From assembly GCF_028596125.1 (NCBI RefSeq), contig NZ_CP117229.1, positions 790,001 through 854,000 on the forward strand: 64,000 bases of DNA, read 5' to 3'. The translations under genes were made by a program, and so were the position numbers. Of the stretch, positions 9,319 to 50,557 are shown in pieces (position 1 is the first letter of the stretch; the number at the start of each line of letters is the position of its first letter). The stretch comes from Listeria innocua. GTDB lineage: Bacteria; Bacillota; Bacilli; Lactobacillales; Listeriaceae. The notes beneath the pieces were generated by a model, which saw only the letters and a program-made list of their open reading frames with translations, was not told the origin of the DNA and did not search any database.

Positions 9319-9534
9319 ATTTGCTTTTGATCTGTGGGAATCAGAAGCTAAGTGGGAATGAATAGATATTCTTTTATGAACGTTATAAAGAAATAACTAC
9401 TATTTTAATATAACTTTTTTTACTAAAACGTGCACTAGTAAAAATAGAACATAAATAGTTAATAACGCTTTATTTGTTGCAGCCCAGTCAGTCTAGCACT
9501 TGTGAAAGTTTTATGACAATTCTAAATCTATCGT

Positions 9535-17824: not shown

Positions 17825-20473
17825 TTGGAGATTTACCGCAAAAGCGCGGCAGATACATTTAAACAACTAGAAGCAACAGAACAAGGCTTAACAACTAGTG
17901 AGGTTACAAAACGACAAGAAAAATACGGTTTTAACGAACTGAAGAATAAAAAGAAAGATCCACTTTGGAAGCTTTTTCTCGAAACGTTTAAAGATCCAAT
18001 GGTCATCGTTTTAGTCATAGCTGCCTTGGTGCAGTTGGTTTTAGGTGAAGTAGTTGAATCACTTATTATCTTTTTAGTACTTATTGTCAACTCAATTATT
18101 AGCGTAGTTCAGACGAGAAAAGCAGAAAGTTCACTCGATGCTTTACGAGAAATGTCTGCGCCAGTTGCCAAAGTAATTCGCGATGGCTCTAAACAAAGCA
18201 TTCATGCGCGCGAACTCGTCCCAGGTGATGTAGTTATTTTAGATGCAGGTGATTTTGTCCCAGCAGACGGCCGCTTATTCGAAAGTGGTTCTTTAAAAAT
18301 CGATGAAGGCATGCTCACTGGGGAATCCGAAGCAGTAGAAAAATATATTGATACTATTTCTGATGAAGTAGGCCTTGGTGACCGTGTGAATATGGTGTTC
18401 AGTGGCTCCCTCGTTGTTTATGGTCGCGGGATGTTTGTCGTAACAGGCACTGCTAGCGAAACGGAAATCGGCAAAATCGCAGGACTTCTTGAAACAGCCG
18501 AAGCAAAACAAACACCACTACAACGAAAACTTGAATCATTTAGTAAAAAATTAGGAATTGGTATTTTAGCACTCTGTGTACTTATTTTTGCAGTTGAGGC
18601 TGGTCGCGTATTACTCGGCGACAATTCAGCGGATATGGCAACAGCGATTTTAAATGCCTTTATGTTTGCCGTGGCCGTAGCTGTAGCAGCGATTCCAGAA
18701 GCACTTTCTTCTATTGTAACGATTGTACTTGCCGTTGGAACAAATAAAATGGCAAAACAACATGCGATTATTAGAAAGCTCCCGGCCGTTGAAACACTAG
18801 GCTCCACAAGTGTTATTTGTACCGATAAAACAGGTACGTTAACCCAAAACAAAATGACGGTTGTCGATTACTTTTTACCAGATGGAACAAAGGAAAATTT
18901 CCCGGATAGTCCAGAAAACTGGTCAGAAGGGGAGCGTCGTTTGATTCATATTGCGGTACTTTGTAATGACTCAAATATTAACAGTGAAGGTAAAGAACTA
19001 GGCGACCCTACCGAAGTAGCGCTAATTGCCTTTAGTAATAAAAATAATCAAGACTACAATGAAATTCGCGAAAAATTCATCCGTGAAGGCGAAATTCCAT
19101 TTGATTCAGATCGTAAGTTAATGTCTACGCTTCACACCTTTAATGAAAACAAAGCAATGCTAACAAAAGGCGGACCAGATGTGATGTTCGCGCGCTGTAG
19201 TTATGTTTTCCTTGACGGCGAAGAAAAGCCAATGACGGAAGAAATTTTAACGAAATTAAAAGAAACAAATGAAGAATTTTCAAATCAGGCACTCCGGGTC
19301 CTTGCTTACGGCTACAAACGGATGCCAGCTGACACAACCGAATTAAAATTAGAAGACGAACAAGACATCGTACTAGTTGGTTTAACTGCAATGATTGATC
19401 CGCCGCGTGAAGCTGTTTATGCGTCGATTGAAGAGTCGAAAAAAGCCGGTATCCGCACCGTCATGATTACTGGTGACCATAAAACAACCGCACAAGCAAT
19501 CGGTCGCGATATTGGTTTAATGGATGCAGACGACATCGCTTTAACTGGTCAAGAACTCGACGCAATGCCAGAAGAAGAACTTGATAAAAAACTAGAACAT
19601 ATCGCTGTTTACGCCCGTGTTTCTCCAGAAAATAAAATCCGTATCGTCAAAGCTTGGCAGAAAAAAGGTAAAATAACGGCAATGACTGGCGACGGTGTCA
19701 ATGATGCGCCCGCTTTAAAACAAGCCGATATTGGTGTCGCAATGGGTAGCGGAACTGACGTTGCCAAAGACTCTGCCGCGATGATTTTAACCGATGATAA
19801 TTTCGTTTCAATTGTGGATGCAGTTGGTGTAGGTAGAACGGTTTTTGATAATATTAAGAAATCAATTGCTTATCTATTTGCAGGAAACTTAGGCGCGATT
19901 ATAGCAATTTTATTCGCGCTAGTACTGGACTGGATTAACCCGTTCACAGCGCTACAACTACTATTTATCAACTTAGTCAATGACTCCTTACCGGCAATTG
20001 CGCTAGGAATGGAAAAAGCAGAACCTGATGTAATGAAACGCAAACCGAGAGATATTAACGAAGGTATTTTTGCTGGTGGCACGATGCGCGCCGTTATCAG
20101 TCGTGGTGTCTTAATCGGTATCGCCGTTATCATCTCACAATACATCGGTATGCAAATTTCACCAGAGATGAGTGTCGCAATGGCGTTCACTACACTTATC
20201 CTAGCTCGTACATTACAAACTTTTGCAGCTCGCTCAAACGTCCAAACCGCATTTGGCGCAGGCTTCTTCAGCAACAAATACGTAATCGGCGCGGTATTAC
20301 TTTGTTTCGTCCTATACGGAATTACAGTATTACCAGGAGCTCGCGAAATCTTCTCGATCCCAGCAACATTTGGTTTACACGAATGGTCGATTGCAGCAGG
20401 CTTAGCACTCGGAGCAGTTGTGATGATGGAGATAATTAAAGTAGTTCAGAATAAATTTTTTAAAGTGAGTTGA
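17825..20473 (+). CDS. Calcium-transporting P-type ATPase (LMCA1-like)
   Basis: This 882-residue P2A-type ATPase expels Ca2+ across the membrane. Motifs run in order: LTGESEAV (actuator loop TGE), IPEALSSIVT in helix M4 (Ca-site Glu), the phosphorylation motif ICTDKTGTLT near residue 334, KGGPDVM in the nucleotide domain, and TGDGVNDAPALKQADIG at the hinge. Ten membrane helices are expected. The length and sequence fit LMCA1 of L. monocytogenes, a characterised Ca2+ pump related to SERCA. The TTG start is preceded by AAGGGG; the overlapping ATG at 17821 is out of frame. It is transcribed alone and ends at the border of an accessory island. Confidence 0.93.
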   Translation: MEIYRKSAADTFKQLEATEQGLTTSEVTKRQEKYGFNELKNKKKDPLWKLFLETFKDPMVIVLVIAALVQLVLGEVVESLIIFLVLIVNSIISVVQTRKAESSLDALREMSAPVAKVIRDGSKQSIHARELVPGDVVILDAGDFVPADGRLFESGSLKIDEGMLTGESEAVEKYIDTISDEVGLGDRVNMVFSGSLVVYGRGMFVVTGTASETEIGKIAGLLETAEAKQTPLQRKLESFSKKLGIGILALCVLIFAVEAGRVLLGDNSADMATAILNAFMFAVAVAVAAIPEALSSIVTIVLAVGTNKMAKQHAIIRKLPAVETLGSTSVICTDKTGTLTQNKMTVVDYFLPDGTKENFPDSPENWSEGERRLIHIAVLCNDSNINSEGKELGDPTEVALIAFSNKNNQDYNEIREKFIREGEIPFDSDRKLMSTLHTFNENKAMLTKGGPDVMFARCSYVFLDGEEKPMTEEILTKLKETNEEFSNQALRVLAYGYKRMPADTTELKLEDEQDIVLVGLTAMIDPPREAVYASIEESKKAGIRTVMITGDHKTTAQAIGRDIGLMDADDIALTGQELDAMPEEELDKKLEHIAVYARVSPENKIRIVKAWQKKGKITAMTGDGVNDAPALKQADIGVAMGSGTDVAKDSAAMILTDDNFVSIVDAVGVGRTVFDNIKKSIAYLFAGNLGAIIAILFALVLDWINPFTALQLLFINLVNDSLPAIALGMEKAEPDVMKRKPRDINEGIFAGGTMRAVISRGVLIGIAVIISQYIGMQISPEMSVAMAFTTLILARTLQTFAARSNVQTAFGAGFFSNKYVIGAVLLCFVLYGITVLPGAREIFSIPATFGLHEWSIAAGLALGAVVMMEIIKVVQNKFFKVS

Positions 20474-20510
20474 GAATAACAGATTATTATTTAGAACTAT
20501 TTTCTTTACT

Positions 20511-20548
20511 TGATAAGAGTATCTATAATATTATAGATACTCTTATCA
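20511..20548. repeat. 38-nt perfect palindrome at the left edge of the island
   Basis: The stretch 20511-20548 is exactly self-complementary (left arm TGATAAGAGTATCTATAAT, 19 nt). There is no proper T run after it, so it is not a classical terminator, although it could act as one weakly for the ATPase gene. It coincides with the change from typical Listeria coding sequence to the AT-rich island. Confidence 0.75.
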
Positions 20549-20640
20549 TTTAAGTATCTGACTATAACTATACATTTTATTTTAATCAGGGTACAAATAT
20601 TAAGCCCTCTTTATTGCGCTTTATATAAGGGAGCCGTATT

Positions 20641-20688
20641 TTGATTTATGAGGATAAAAGGGCAGAAATAATCATAGAAGAAATATAG
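20641..20688 (+). pseudogene. 15-residue frame with a copied translation start (possible gene remnant)
   Basis: A TTG-initiated frame reads LIYEDKRAEIIIEEI and then stops. It is preceded by TATATAAGGGAGCCG (20622-20636), which matches 14 of 15 bases of the sequence before the methyltransferase start (20797-20811). This suggests a duplication or deletion relic of an upstream gene in the same system. It is too short for a product to be recognised. Confidence 0.3.
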
Positions 20689-20760
20689 ATTTAAAGGTTT
20701 TTAAACTAAGTATTTCGCAAAACTAAAATATTTTATCCAATAGAGAAATGTTAAAAAGCA

Positions 20761-20779
20761 TGCTATAATCAAATTTGAT
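20761..20779 (+). promoter_or_regulatory. Extended -10 promoter and 12-bp palindrome before the methyltransferase
   Basis: TGCTATAAT (20761-20769) is an extended -10 element with no good -35. The perfect palindrome ATCAAATTTGAT (20768-20779) overlaps the -10 and the expected start of transcription, so a bound protein would block initiation. Methyltransferases and small controller proteins often autoregulate at such sites; the binder here is unknown. The rest of 20549-20816 holds no convincing gene. Confidence 0.5.
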
Positions 20780-20816
20780 AGCAGAATTTTGAATTATATA
20801 TAAGGGAGTCGAAATA

Positions 20817-21872
20817 ATGAAGTTAAGAGCTGTGGATTTGTTCTGTGGAATTGGAGGTCTCACTAGAGGGGTTACTAATGAAGGAATAGATGTAATTGCA
20901 GGGATAGACATAGAAAGCTCTTGTGAATATGCATATGAACAAAATAATAGTGCTTATTTTATAAATAAAGATATTAAAGAAGTAACTGGGAAAGAAATTG
21001 AGAAATTATTTCCTAAAGACACGGACATAAAAATACTGATGGGTTGTGCTCCTTGCCAACCTTTTTCATCATATAGCCGTAGATATAAAAATAACGAAAA
21101 AACAATTCAAAAAATGGATTTATTAGATTACTTTGGACAATTAGTTATAGATGTTAAACCAGAAATCGTATCAATGGAAAATGTTCCACAATTAAGGAAT
21201 GAACATGTTTTTAAAACGTTTATAAATACTCTTGAAGAGCAAGGGTATAATGTTTTTTGGGAAATTGTATATGCTCCAGAATATGGGGTGCCACAAAATA
21301 GAAAAAGACTAGTGTTATTGGCTTCAAAATTAGGGAGCATAGAATTAGTGGAGTCTATGTATGATGTATCTTGTTATCCTACAGTTCGAGATTCAATAAG
21401 CACATTAACTAAGATTAAATCTGGTGAAACTGACAAGAAAGACATTATGCATAAAAGTGTTAAATTAAATACTAAAAACTTAAAAAGAATAAAACAATCT
21501 AAACCAGGTGGAACTTGGAAAGATTGGGATGAGGACTTACTATTAACTTGTCATAAAAAAGAGACAGGTAAATCTTATTCATCAGTATATGGAAGAATGG
21601 AATGGGATAAACCTGCACCAACTATAACTACTAAGTTTTTTGGTTATGGGAATGGAAGGTTTGGTCATCCTGAACAAGATAGGGCTATCTCATATAGAGA
21701 AGGAGCGATCCTTCAAACTTTCCCTCTAGATTATAGATTTATAAATGAACAGTCAGGTAGTATATCATACAGCCAATTAGGTATTCAAATAGGTAATGCT
21801 GTACCAGTTAAGTTAGGTGAGGCTATTGGAAAATCAATAAAAAAGCATATAGAAGGGATAATGATAAAGTGA
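20817..21872 (+). CDS. DNA (cytosine-5) methyltransferase
   Basis: The 351-residue enzyme methylates C5 of cytosine in DNA using S-adenosylmethionine. All core motifs are visible: I DLFCGIGGLTRG (residues 7-18), IV GCAPCQPFS with catalytic Cys80, VI ENV at 121-123, VIII QNRKR at 160-164, and X GNAVPVKLGEAIG near the C-terminus. The segment between VIII and IX (about residues 180-270) is the target recognition region; the recognised site cannot be read from it. The ATG follows TAAGGGAG. Its stop overlaps the GTG start of the DUF262 gene by four bases, and the HEPN gene follows three bases after that one, so the three genes are translationally linked. No conventional restriction endonuclease lies beside it. 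Confidence 0.95.
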   Translation: MKLRAVDLFCGIGGLTRGVTNEGIDVIAGIDIESSCEYAYEQNNSAYFINKDIKEVTGKEIEKLFPKDTDIKILMGCAPCQPFSSYSRRYKNNEKTIQKMDLLDYFGQLVIDVKPEIVSMENVPQLRNEHVFKTFINTLEEQGYNVFWEIVYAPEYGVPQNRKRLVLLASKLGSIELVESMYDVSCYPTVRDSISTLTKIKSGETDKKDIMHKSVKLNTKNLKRIKQSKPGGTWKDWDEDLLLTCHKKETGKSYSSVYGRMEWDKPAPTITTKFFGYGNGRFGHPEQDRAISYREGAILQTFPLDYRFINEQSGSISYSQLGIQIGNAVPVKLGEAIGKSIKKHIEGIMIK

Positions 21873-22900
21873 ACTTAATAACAACAGAACAAAAAAAAAA
21901 AGCTGAGCAACAAATTTTGAATTTACAAGAAAGAGTAGATTATGATATTAGGGACTATCCTATAGAGTTTATAGTGAGCAAATATGATTCTGAGGATTAC
22001 TTTATACCAGATTACCAGAGAGAATTTATATGGTCTAGCTCTGATCAAGCTCGTTTTATAGAATCATTATTGTTAGACTTACCCATACCGCTTCTTTTTT
22101 TATCTGATACGGATGAAGGGAAATTAGAAATTGTGGATGGCGTTCAAAGAATAAATACATTGTCTGCCTTTTTAAGTGGTAAATTGGTGCTTTGTAATTT
22201 AAAAAAATTAACAGAAGTTAATGCGTTTAACTTTAGTAATTTACCCCCGTCTCAGCAGAGAAGATTACAATCTAAAGCTTTACGTGTTATTGTTTTGAGG
22301 GCAAGTACAAGTGAAGATATAAGAAAAGAATTATTTGATAGACTAAATACTTCAGGGGAAAAAGCTAAAGATTCAGAGGTAAGAAGAGGATCATTTGAAG
22401 GCGATTTCATGACATTTATTGAGAATATGGCTAACTTACCTAAGAGACAGTTAGTTGCCCCTGTATCACCAAAAAACAAAAAAAGAAGAGAACATATTGA
22501 GTTAGTGTTAAGATTTTTTGCCTATTCTAATAACTATAAGAATTTTAAGCATGGAGTTCAAGTTTTTATTGATGATTATATTAAGGACGTGAAAGATAGT
22601 TTTTCAGAAATGGATATGGAAGCAGATTTTCTGAAAATGTTGAGCTTTGCTGAAAAATATTTTCCAATAGGATTTAAAAAGACGAGTACATCTAAAACGG
22701 TTCCAAGGGTAAGGTTCGAAGCTCTATCTGTAGGAATAATTCTTGCATTAAGAGATAATGCGGATTTAGTGCCAGAAGATGTTAATAGTTGGATAAATAG
22801 TGAAGAATTTAAAAAACTTACAACAAGTGATGGCAGTAATTCTAAAGTAAGAGTAAAGGAAAGAATTGAATATGTCAAAAATAAATTGTTGGAGAAATAG
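21869..22900 (+). CDS. DUF262 (ParB/Srx-like) domain protein
   Basis: This 343-residue protein carries the DUF262 signatures: IPDYQREFIW (46-55), DGVQRINTLSAF (90-101, the family's DGQQR motif) and FDRLNTSGEK (156-165). DUF262 belongs to the ParB/sulfiredoxin fold and includes nucleases or NTP-using switches of several phage-defence systems, among them GmrSD-type and BrxU-type enzymes. Here there is no C-terminal HNH (DUF1524) domain; the last 180 residues are helical and unassigned. The GTG start overlaps the methyltransferase stop. It is therefore likely an effector or sensor partner of that enzyme, perhaps reading the methylation state. That role is inference. Confidence 0.85.
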   Translation: MNLITTEQKKKAEQQILNLQERVDYDIRDYPIEFIVSKYDSEDYFIPDYQREFIWSSSDQARFIESLLLDLPIPLLFLSDTDEGKLEIVDGVQRINTLSAFLSGKLVLCNLKKLTEVNAFNFSNLPPSQQRRLQSKALRVIVLRASTSEDIRKELFDRLNTSGEKAKDSEVRRGSFEGDFMTFIENMANLPKRQLVAPVSPKNKKRREHIELVLRFFAYSNNYKNFKHGVQVFIDDYIKDVKDSFSEMDMEADFLKMLSFAEKYFPIGFKKTSTSKTVPRVRFEALSVGIILALRDNADLVPEDVNSWINSEEFKKLTTSDGSNSKVRVKERIEYVKNKLLEK

Positions 22901-22903
22901 TAT

Positions 22904-23608
22904 ATGACTAACAGTATGGAATTTGAATTTGATAAACGTTTAAGTGAAGTCGAATATTATTTCTTTTGCTTAGCTCAACTTTACAAATTTAATGAGCAAA
23001 AACAGTCAAATAATTTAAAAAGAAAAATGAAAACAAAAACTCATGATTTTCAAGATTTTTTAGTTATATTGAAAGCCAACTCTTTTATAGTGCTTTATAA
23101 TTTAGTAGAGGCTTCAGTTAAAAATTTTGTTATTAGTATTTACGACGAAGTTTCTATACAAAGCTTAAATTATAATGATGTCTGTGATAAATTAAAAAAA
23201 ATGTGGATTGATATTTATTATAATGATTTAAGTCATACTACAACAAATTACTCTCAACATAAAGAAAAAGCAAAAAATATGATTGAATTTATTATTGAAG
23301 GAAAAAAAATAGAATTTGGGGATGAAGTAAAGCTGAGTGGAAATGCAGATTTAAAACAAATAAGAAAGGTTTTTGATGATCATGGCATGACTATTGATTC
23401 TTCAATAATACAGGATGTAGGATCAGGATTATTGGAAGTTAAAAATAAAAGAAATAATATTGCTCATGGTAATATTTCTTTTATTGAGGGAGGAAGAGAG
23501 TCTTCAGTAGGTGATTTAATCAAGTATAAGGATGAAATAATTAGATTTTTATACGAATTACATACAGAAGTTTCTGAATATGTTGATAATCAGAAGTATC
23601 GCTGCTAG
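22904..23608 (+). CDS. HEPN-domain protein, MAE_28990/MAE_18760-like (putative RNase)
   Basis: The 234-residue protein is mostly helical. Near the C-terminus it has KNKRNNIAHGN, where R183 and H188 form the Rx4H motif of HEPN ribonucleases. An earlier block, NSFIVLYNLVEASVKNFV (residues ~59-76), matches the first conserved helices of the MAE_28990-type HEPN family. HEPN proteins in defence and toxin loci usually cleave RNA as dimers. The gene starts three bases after the DUF262 stop, so the two are co-translated. From memory, surveys of HEPN proteins place this subfamily beside DUF262 proteins and DNA methylases. An RNA-cleaving effector role is inferred. Confidence 0.8.
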   Translation: MTNSMEFEFDKRLSEVEYYFFCLAQLYKFNEQKQSNNLKRKMKTKTHDFQDFLVILKANSFIVLYNLVEASVKNFVISIYDEVSIQSLNYNDVCDKLKKMWIDIYYNDLSHTTTNYSQHKEKAKNMIEFIIEGKKIEFGDEVKLSGNADLKQIRKVFDDHGMTIDSSIIQDVGSGLLEVKNKRNNIAHGNISFIEGGRESSVGDLIKYKDEIIRFLYELHTEVSEYVDNQKYRC

Positions 23609-23724
23609 AATAATGAGCTTTTTATTTCTTTTTTTAGATATAAACTGGATGGAAGATAGTGCAGAGATAATTAGTACTGTATGACTTTAATAATTTTATT
23701 GTTAGAAAGAGAGTAAGTATATTT

Positions 23725-24522
23725 ATGTATGATTTTCAATTCAAAACTGAAAGTTTTTGTAGAGAACTTTTCACAGTAACGTGTGACTTGAAAAAGAAGA
23801 ATACTGAAGAGGATATTTTGTTTACAAGTTTATTAATAAGTATTTATAATTCTATCGAATCAACTTTTATACTTTTAGAAAATGAAAGATATTGGGATGC
23901 TCTTATTTTAGAACGTTCGGTTTTTGAAGGAATGCTCAGATTAATTTGCTTAAACAATGGAACGGTGGAGGAACAAGTAGAAAAGTTTAATGAATTTTTC
24001 TATTTACTACCAGAGTTTGAAAATTTAAAGAGGTATAACAGAGCAAGAGTAGTAAATAATAACAATAATAATAAATTCAAGCAAATTGTTGAAATTGAAA
24101 AAAATTTAGAAGATGTAATAAAAAAAACAAGTAGTATATATACTAAAAAAGATAGGAAAAGAATAGAGCACAAGTGGAGCGTATCGGAAATGTGTAATAG
24201 TACAGCTGATTTACAGATTGAAAAATTTGATATGTTGCTATATTTTTATAATTTATCTAGTAATTTTATACACAAAGATGCTACTTCTTTGGGCATACAA
24301 ATTGAAAAAACTTTTGAGAATGAGAAGCTTTATTATGCTGCATTTAATGCAACGATTTTATTGAACATGATACATGTACTTTCAATATCAGTCATTTATT
24401 TTGGGAAATATTTTAAAAGTGATTTAAATAATCAAGTTAAGACTTTAATGAAAGAAAAAACTTCTTTATTTAGCCAGCTAGAAGAATTAAGAAGTAAATG
24501 GTTTGATAATGAGTATAAATAA
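23725..24522 (+). CDS. Helical protein resembling DUF5677, island gene
   Basis: The 265-residue protein is predicted to be nearly all helical. Blocks such as ERYWDALILERSVFEGMLRLICL (residues ~53-75) and YNLSSNFIHKD (~173-183) resemble the DUF5677 family of unknown function, whose S-x-x-x-H-type segment recalls HEPN-like folds. It has a poly-Asn stretch (VVNNNNNNK) in the middle. The gene follows the HEPN gene after 116 bp, with a weak ribosome binding site (AAAGAGAG), so it may have its own promoter. Membership in the defence operon is probable by position only. I cannot assign a function. Confidence 0.55.
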   Translation: MYDFQFKTESFCRELFTVTCDLKKKNTEEDILFTSLLISIYNSIESTFILLENERYWDALILERSVFEGMLRLICLNNGTVEEQVEKFNEFFYLLPEFENLKRYNRARVVNNNNNNKFKQIVEIEKNLEDVIKKTSSIYTKKDRKRIEHKWSVSEMCNSTADLQIEKFDMLLYFYNLSSNFIHKDATSLGIQIEKTFENEKLYYAAFNATILLNMIHVLSISVIYFGKYFKSDLNNQVKTLMKEKTSLFSQLEELRSKWFDNEYK

Positions 24523-24554
24523 GTAAAAAGGTAGTACTTCTAATTTAAGAAGTT

Positions 24555-24587
24555 AGCACGATAAATAATTATTTATCGTGCTTTTTT
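24555..24587 (+). terminator. Terminator at the right edge of the island
   Basis: The perfect stem AGCACGATAAAT / ATTTATCGTGCT with an AATT loop is followed by TTTTTT. Bases 24588-24736 hold nothing that I recognise. Confidence 0.85.
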
Positions 24588-24736
24588 ATAATATAAAAAT
24601 TCGATTATTGTAGCAACAGAAGTAATTCATTTTTATAAACATTAATTGTTATGATTAAAAAAAAAACTATAAGTAAATAGCTAGATAAAAATTTTTCTAT
24701 AAGTTCAAAGTTTTCTACGTAAACTAAAGCTCTCCC

Positions 24737-24994
24737 TTAATACAACCACCAAACCAAAACCCCAACAGTCCAAACCATCGCAAGTGGCACTAAAATCCGA
24801 AACTTCGGCTTTTGCGTTTTATGGTGAAACAACTGCATCGACATCCAACTACCAAAGGCACCACCAAGAAATGCGGAGAGAAGTAGTACTGATTCAGGTA
24901 TACGGTATGCGTGTTTAATTGCTTTCCGTTTATCAACAGCGAATAATAGAAAAGAAATAAGTGTTATCGCGATTAAATATATCGTTAAAATCAT
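24737..24994 (-). CDS. DUF1294-family membrane protein
   Basis: An 85-residue protein with three hydrophobic segments and the DUF1294 signatures FAVDKRKAIKHAYRIPESVLL and LSAFLGGAFGSWMSMQLFHHKTQKPKF (split across residues ~19-65). The function of the family is unknown. The ATG follows AAAGGGGGA. It is convergent with the island and marks the return to the conserved Listeria backbone. Confidence 0.85.
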   Translation of the reverse strand: MILTIYLIAITLISFLLFAVDKRKAIKHAYRIPESVLLLSAFLGGAFGSWMSMQLFHHKTQKPKFRILVPLAMVWTVGVLVWWLY

Positions 24995-25450: not shown

Positions 25451-25516
25451 ATATTCAGAAATAAATTTGACAATCACGAGAAGTAAACGATATAATAAGA
25501 ACCAATTACATAGTAA

Positions 25517-25609
25517 CTTATCAAGAAAGGTGGAGGGTTCTGGCCCAGTGAAGCCTTGGCAACCGGACTTTTCACGGTGCCAAATCCAGCAGTATCACTG
25601 ACAGATAAG
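25517..25609 (+). ncRNA. SAM-I (S-box) riboswitch
   Basis: The stretch has the S-box layout: P1 arms CTTATC (25517-25522) and GATAAG (25603-25608), then AAGAAAGGTGGAGGGTTC, CCAGTGAAGCCTTGGCAACC, CACGGTGCCAAATCC and ACTGACAG blocks, all conserved in SAM-I aptamers. A terminator follows and a methionine-pathway gene lies downstream. SAM binding should stabilise P1 and permit the terminator. Confidence 0.95.
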
Positions 25610-25632
25610 GCACGCGAAACAGGTAAATCACT

Positions 25633-50257: not shown

Positions 50258-50306
50258 ATAGACTGTAGATAAAGAAGTTTTAACTTTATCTACAGTCTAT
50301 TTTTTT
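50258..50306 (+). terminator. Terminator after the helicase gene
   Basis: ATAGACTGTAGATAAAG / CTTTATCTACAGTCTAT, a 17-bp perfect stem followed by T residues. Confidence 0.9.
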
Positions 50307-50346
50307 ATAAATACTAATGTTAGGGAACGGAAGTGTGGCGCTCGTC

Positions 50347-50523
50347 ATGAAGATAAACAAAATTATCGAATATATTGTCGTAGCAATCATCGTTCTAGTG
50401 TGGACTTACCTCATTGTCATTAAAGAAATTCTTCCTAAAAATATAGGATTTATTTCATTAGTAATTCTATCAATAGTTCTTTATTTTGTAGGTAAAAGGT
50501 TGAATGGGAAACATAGCAGATAA
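50347..50523 (+). CDS. Small membrane protein of two helices
   Basis: From ATG 50347 the protein has 58 residues with two hydrophobic helices (IVVAIIVLVWTYLIVI and IGFISLVILSIVLYFVG) and a basic tail. Earlier in-frame starts exist (ATG 50317, GTG 50332); none has a well-placed ribosome binding site, so the start is uncertain. No family is recognised. A terminator overlaps the stop. Confidence 0.6.
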   Translation: MKINKIIEYIVVAIIVLVWTYLIVIKEILPKNIGFISLVILSIVLYFVGKRLNGKHSR

Positions 50524-50557
50524 AAAACGGCTATACTCTAAGTAGCCGTTTTTTTTA
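50523..50557 (+). terminator. Terminator after the small membrane protein
   Basis: AAAAAACGGCTA / TAGCCGTTTTTTTT with a short loop. Confidence 0.85.

Follow-up and report, generated by a model that had tools for sequence, protein, structure and literature searches.

A three-gene operon on a Listeria innocua chromosome raises the question of whether a DNA-modifying enzyme and an RNA-cutting protein might serve one and the same defence system. The operon lies in a window of 64,000 nucleotides (assembly GCF_028596125.1, contig NZ_CP117229.1, positions 790,001 to 854,000), which is the whole stretch analysed here and to which the positions below refer. It encodes a C5-cytosine DNA methyltransferase (MTase; 20817..21872), a DUF262 protein (21869..22900) and a HEPN protein of the MAE_28990 family (22904..23608), all on the + strand. 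The three genes very probably form a defence module. On balance, we favour a mobile, restriction-like anti-phage module, in which the MTase would set a mark, DUF262 would serve as sensor and switch, and the HEPN protein would cut RNA. The observed basis of the module is its gene content, intact motifs, folds, recurrence, correlated divergence and mobility.

The operon is real, and its three genes are intact and closely linked. The DUF262 gene has a GTG start and a 4-base overlap with the MTase gene; the HEPN gene starts after a 3-base gap behind the DUF262 gene; and a sequence resembling a ribosome-binding site, as judged by eye, precedes each of the three. The first-pass annotation, made from the sequence alone, had described this coupling, and the coordinates of the open reading frames (ORFs) confirm it. 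The motifs that it named (IPDYQREFIW, DGVQR and RNNIAH) are all in place, at residues 46, 90 and 183 of their proteins. The Pfam matches of all three proteins exceed the curated cut-offs. The MTase (351 aa) matches DNA_methylase (PF00145) with 208 bits, and its catalytic motifs are intact (PCQ at 79, ENV at 121, QNRKR at 160); its best PADLOC model is DrmMII (PDLC02651, 326 bits). The DUF262 protein (343 aa) has a ParB/Srx-type N domain and a helical C half. GmrSD_N (PF03235; 92 bits, residues 35-175) is its sole Pfam domain at E up to 0.1, and neither DUF1524 nor HNH was found, in agreement with the earlier claim that the HNH domain is missing. The residues of its PxYQR...W and DGxQR motifs are each kept in 101-107 of 108 aligned rows. 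Among the PADLOC models, NsnA scored highest (189 bits), followed by PD-T4-2_A (139 bits) and REase_II (55 bits); the listed papers that contain the name NsnA deal with other subjects. The protein has a BrxU-like fold, and its alignment to BrxU ends at residue 421 of 580.

The HEPN protein (234 aa) matches HEPN_MAE_28990 (PF18737) with 78.8 bits, against a cut-off of 26.8, and PF18735 with 43.5 bits. Its active-site motif R183-x4-H188, also proposed in the first-pass annotation, holds up well: R183 and H188 are unchanged in 98/98 aligned rows, the window row included, and so are Y65, E69 and G189. The structure model has a pLDDT of 90.8, and HEPN toxins are among the best fold matches. A search against the PADLOC models gave no match at E up to 0.1, the presence of a PD-T4-2 HEPN model among them being unchecked; a sequence search of solved structures gave four weak matches, with designed helical proteins on top. 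RNase activity is predicted from the HEPN family, and the HEPN RNase is likely to be the effector.

A different division of labour belongs to the multi-layered restriction-modification (R-M) system proposed in 2013. There, DUF262 would be the DNA-cutting restriction subunit; the HEPN protein would be a second-line suicide RNase, inactive until restriction fails, as in the PrrC model. Anantharaman et al. (2013, PMC3710099) name the partner a "ParB nuclease" and draw the analogy to PrrC, and the REase_II match of the DUF262 protein points the same way. However, Pfam finds no domain besides DUF262 in this protein. Its fold resembles that of BrxU, yet the part in which a review places cleavage by BrxU and GmrSD (DUF1524/HNH) is missing. 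HEPN and DUF262 are nearly always coupled, which does not point to an optional second line: in 97 of 102 relatives the gap is at most 20 bp (counting overlaps, and with start codons picked mechanically). This division of labour appears unlikely.

The same genes recur widely. With the HEPN protein alone as query, no confirmed relative was found in named genomes; because the HEPN family is divergent, DUF262 was used as the seed. One genome per species was searched (84,980 species), which gave 430 confirmed relatives, and the best 80 of these were analysed; they are the loci nearest to the window, and the fractions describe its clade. The HEPN gene is present in 80/80 loci (the adjacency script counted 79, the DUF262 frame of L051 being split), and 71/80 have a C5 MTase no more than 2.5 kb away, across 11 phyla. 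The co-occurrence of the three genes elsewhere is thereby borne out. The MTase gene is convergent to DUF262-HEPN in 43 loci, precedes it in the window's order MTase-DUF262-HEPN in 26, is co-directional and last in 2, and is absent nearby in 9. On the DUF262 tree (quick method; 105 of 108 rows, those below 250 aa being left out), there are at least 10 changes of arrangement and at least 5 of MTase class. Among viral contigs found with the DUF262 seed (best 80 of 135, near-copies included), 80 have the HEPN gene and 76 an MTase. No fusion between the MTase, DUF262 and HEPN families was found in the ORFs of the loci examined. One HEPN relative (L008 1501-2076) has two in-frame TGA codons and is a pseudogene or a case of recoding.

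When the Pfam HEPN family served as the seed instead, 398 genomes from the phylum of the window yielded 8 matches above the cut-off, the window among them. DUF262 adjoins HEPN in all 7 others; a C5 MTase, of another class, is nearby in only one of them. The 2 matches below the cut-off have neither DUF262 nor a C5 MTase. Because the HEPN-seeded loci keep DUF262 and rarely the MTase, the core of the system is the DUF262-HEPN pair, and the MTase is a feature of one large clade of this pair.

In the reading that we favour, the C5 MTase would mark host DNA at one target sequence. DUF262, a ParB-type NTPase fold like BrxU and GmrS but without HNH, might sense DNA that lacks the mark and then switch; NTP-dependent switching is suggested by analogy to GmrSD, BrxU and SspE. 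DUF262 would partner the HEPN protein of the next gene, and unmarked DNA would release the HEPN RNase activity. The R-x4-H site would then cut RNA, halting phage growth and probably the cell (abortive infection). That the absence of the mark is the trigger is pure inference, held with slightly more doubt than belief.

Correlated divergence bears on the place of the MTase. MTases were assigned to classes I, II and other by eye from pairwise identities; the first 86 from these loci comprise 76 of class I, which share one recognition domain, 7 of class II and 3 others. Over 72 class-I loci (broken genes in L013, L051 and L083 and all class-II or other loci left out), the pairwise distances correlate at 0.86 for DUF262-HEPN, 0.81 for DUF262-MTase and 0.77 for HEPN-MTase. 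Mantel permutations reached the first two values in 0/999 cases, and shared ancestry contributes to the correlation. Within the few class-II systems, 0 columns of convergent DUF262 residues were found in two clades (null mean 0.50), and one convergent HEPN column (null mean 0.19, with 9% of null draws as high); with 7 loci, both comparisons have low power.

Nine of the 80 loci have no MTase nearby, and these were examined one by one. In L080, L103 and L109, a class-I MTase sits on another contig, 67-592 bases from its end, as would be expected of a broken assembly; in L084, one lies about 7.5 kb upstream. No class-I MTase was found in the metagenome assembly of L091, nor in the genome sequences searched for L110, L113, L119 and L112. 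From the phylum search, L026 has none in its genome, and L016 none in its plasmid record, which alone was searched. The proposal that every DUF262-HEPN locus requires a class-I MTase in cis or trans was rejected on account of five genomes without class I; these five loci weigh against a strict need for the mark. L110, L113 and L119 form a cyanobacterial clade, and all three carry a convergent 221-codon ORF at the usual MTase position; Pfam recognises nothing in the ORF of L110. IncX1-typed plasmids of Salmonella and E. coli (L039 2107-3747, L040 4507-6147) also carry a distant DUF262 gene, together with a gene annotated as HEPN, directly behind the replication gene and with no annotated methyltransferase nearby.

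Such loci suit another reading, in which DUF262 and HEPN form a sensor-RNase pair like PD-T4-2 with a different trigger (a protein or a base modification of the phage), and the MTase is a separate neighbour or a damper. DUF262-HEPN without a nearby C5 MTase is seen in the cyanobacterial clade, in L112, in most phylum loci and on the IncX1 plasmids; and according to a review, modified cytosine is what the DUF262 proteins of Type IV systems recognise. However, in the clade of the window, the divergence of the MTase follows that of DUF262 (r 0.81), and the MTase stays close through the 10 or more changes of arrangement. A resident C5 MTase would also be harmful if DUF262 sensed 5-methylcytosine (m5C), as BrxU can. 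We regard a different trigger as rather improbable.

The MTase itself occurs with unrelated partners. Among viral contigs found with the MTase as seed (best 80 of 537), 41 have DUF262-HEPN, 24 a paraMORC-type GHKL ATPase, 7 an SNF2-type helicase and 8 none of these, the partner types being assigned with Pfam on representatives; one SNF2-type partner run against PADLOC was named DrmA/DrmD. A class-I set of 241 MTases plus that of the window was collected, those below 440 bits or 250 aa being dropped. It counts some loci twice (overlapping viral scans and refetched loci) and holds 181 distinct sequences; identities and the tree were calculated on the 154 left after removal of copies more than 90% identical. 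The partners of these 154 are DUF262 in 121, paraMORC in 19, SNF2 in 5 and none in 9, with at least 12 partner changes on the tree (quick method).

The target-recognition region of the MTase (21372..21587 on the + strand; residues 186-257 as delimited by us) is kept across the partner systems. Its identity between DUF262-linked and paraMORC- or SNF2-linked MTases is 52.6%, and within the DUF262 group 52.8%; the catalytic part in those comparisons is at 50.5-51.9%. Seven recognition-domain residues are found in 154/154. As a control, other C5 MTases were compared, of which just 25/61 have both boundary motifs. At 30-40% catalytic identity, they share 17.5% in the recognition region (99 pairs, 5 of which reach 35% or more), whereas the class-I pairs that fall into that band, 128 among 1500 sampled, share 53.2%. 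This band is the fair control; the 40-50% band (24 pairs, mean 39.9%) consists mostly of class-II MTases of these systems. The common recognition domain suggests, at the level of sequence, a common target across the partner systems, and the same methyl mark with exchangeable effectors.

Single loci bring the partner systems together. The order in the Alcanivorax locus L084 is class-I MTase, DrmD, DrmMI, DUF262, HEPN and DrmA; in L313 (6088-20000), which is the same place, DUF262-HEPN stands within a DISARM-type operon, between DrmMI and DrmA. A Roseomonas mucosa plasmid (L018 1-6616) carries a Druantia-type DruE helicase, DUF262, HEPN and a convergent class-I MTase. A further reading would make one MTase family the shared self-tag, perhaps also a shared recognition subunit, for DUF262-HEPN, paraMORC ATPases (with or without nuclease) and DISARM-type helicases. 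The HEPN form would then be an R-M system with an RNA-cutting restriction arm, in which the MTase, on meeting unmarked sites, would act as the sensor and set off DUF262-HEPN. Both exchanges, that of the MTase among unrelated effectors and that of DUF262-HEPN among at least two MTase classes, are in keeping with an MTase that carries the specificity. This extension is doubtful, although it deserves some weight.

Two candidate targets were considered. CCWGG has been reported for DISARM in the parts seen of two papers (PMC5957327, PMC12926258), but the same recognition domain could not be demonstrated. The idea that the MTase targets CCWGG, so that the E. coli Dcm enzyme would make it dispensable, was not supported, since the MTase is kept in E. 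coli. Close copies of the module of phage P2_4B2 occur in 7/5426 complete E. coli genomes (megablast). In the 3 copies opened, all three genes are present, with phage portal genes on one side and replication genes on the other, which is the layout of P2-like phages, and the MTase is undisrupted and annotated; the other four list one under the match. In the P2_4B2 record itself (L013 1994-3041), the MTase is split over two frames, with DUF262 and HEPN whole, whereas in the near-identical E. coli prophages it is undisrupted. A lead to GCWGC by way of BceSIV, which belongs with the CglI/NgoAVII family, was dropped.

In the window, the operon lies on a horizontally acquired insert (~20466..24736), flanked by a cation-ATPase-like gene and a DUF1294 gene. 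The GC content is 28.2% in the insert, versus 39.4% and 37.2% in the flanks. In comparison with 14 other Listeria loci, homology of the right flank begins at 24724-24741 in 14/14; that of the left flank stops at 20465 in the 9/14 where this flank is within reach. The shortest alternative filling between the flanks is 174 bp (locus L359). The HEPN gene was found in 1/25 Listeria genomes, the window's own, and not in the 24 others. A fourth gene on the insert (23725..24522, + strand) encodes a DUF5677 protein (PF18928, 50 bits); none of the 9588 ORFs from the relatives' loci matches it at E up to 0.01, and it is probably a passenger. Outside the insert, Rfam identified the Listeria small RNAs rli37 (50280-50525) and rli36 (9323-9406), as befits a Listeria chromosome, and an S-adenosylmethionine (SAM) riboswitch (25515-25611); we read the ORF behind the latter as methionine-synthase-like.

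The relatives are found in phages, prophages and plasmids, and single loci lie beside DISARM or Druantia genes, in accordance with mobility and with the defence context expected at first. Mobility, a toxin-like HEPN protein and carriage by plasmids and prophages might equally mark a selfish addiction module (toxin-antitoxin or post-segregational killing) with no real anti-phage role. Against this stand the DISARM and Druantia neighbours and the relative PD-T4-2, which confers resistance to T4 in its native strain (PMC9519451, as described in the part seen); mere addiction is very improbable. On the phage side, RB49 (NC_005066.1, gene RB49p187; L376 1453-1971) and its T-even-like relatives have a gene for a short DUF262 N domain, of 172 aa in RB49. 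The domain keeps PDYQR...W and IVDGKQR, and its gene lies one gene from a DNA methyltransferase gene; a decoy against DUF262 defences is possible.

If recognition of non-self DNA does trigger RNA cutting, the boundary between R-M and abortive infection would blur, in a compact, mobile system that spans at least 11 phyla. Owing to the modularity, it becomes possible to test which protein reads the DNA in cases where effectors unrelated to one another share a kind of MTase. Calls of "orphan" or "Type II" C5 MTases, and the labels DrmMII and DruM in defence catalogues, may cover one exchangeable part.

The closest precedent is an operon listed by Anantharaman et al. (2013, PMC3710099), with genes for a MAE_28990 HEPN protein, a ParB nuclease and a DNA methylase. 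The window contains the same three components, namely a MAE_28990 HEPN with intact motif, a ParB-like DUF262 gene and a DNA methylase gene. In the part of that paper seen, R-M-linked HEPN RNases were proposed as suicide arms by analogy to PrrC, and the operon is one table entry without analysis of order, distribution or specificity and without a test. The first-pass annotation had called the joining of DNA modification to an RNA-targeting effector unusual; this was overstated, since both the combination and the suicide-RNase idea were published there. As a prediction, the three-gene combination has been known since 2013. Within the openly licensed PMC literature, as recognised from listings and passages, no paper testing the three-gene form was found, nor one with DUF262, HEPN and a cytosine methyltransferase together.

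PD-T4-2 likewise has DUF262 and HEPN in one system, and the window's DUF262 protein matches PD-T4-2_A. It is listed with a HEPN of PF18735 (PMC10952713), whereas the window's HEPN is nearer to PF18737, and no methyltransferase is mentioned for PD-T4-2 in the passages seen. Vassallo et al. (2022, PMC9519451) report that E. coli is protected from T4 by PD-T4-2, and that its deletion in the native strain sharply raised T4 plaquing. The Type IV systems GmrSD and BrxU share the DUF262 N domain and its fold; the window system differs in lacking the DUF1524/HNH nuclease, in its separate HEPN protein and in the m5C methyltransferase of the operon, and Pfam finds no separate GmrD gene on the insert. 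The MORC/paraMORC R-M systems (Iyer et al. 2008, PMC2292703, seen in part) have a cytosine methylase beside the effector. The MTase of the paraMORC loci found here is of the window's class I; but in place of DUF262-HEPN these systems have a GHKL ATPase as effector, with a predicted nuclease of the restriction-endonuclease fold in paraMORC3.

DISARM (DrmMII) and Druantia (DruM) resemble the operon in that the PADLOC models of their MTases match that of the window. However, their helicase genes are absent from the insert, and so is the DrmA/DrmB/DrmC core of DISARM, the four genes being MTase, DUF262, HEPN and DUF5677. PrrC/EcoprrI also joins an R-M system to a HEPN RNase, but PrrC is an ABC-ATPase-HEPN fusion linked to a Type I system and targets tRNA-Lys. 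An intact C5 modification methyltransferase recalls Type II R-M; as to a restriction enzyme, Pfam finds no known nuclease domain in the window proteins, and the REase_II model matches DUF262 at 55 bits. In comparison with these systems, what is new here is the wide recurrence with rearrangement, the correlated divergence, the BrxU-like fold without the nuclease, and the modularity.

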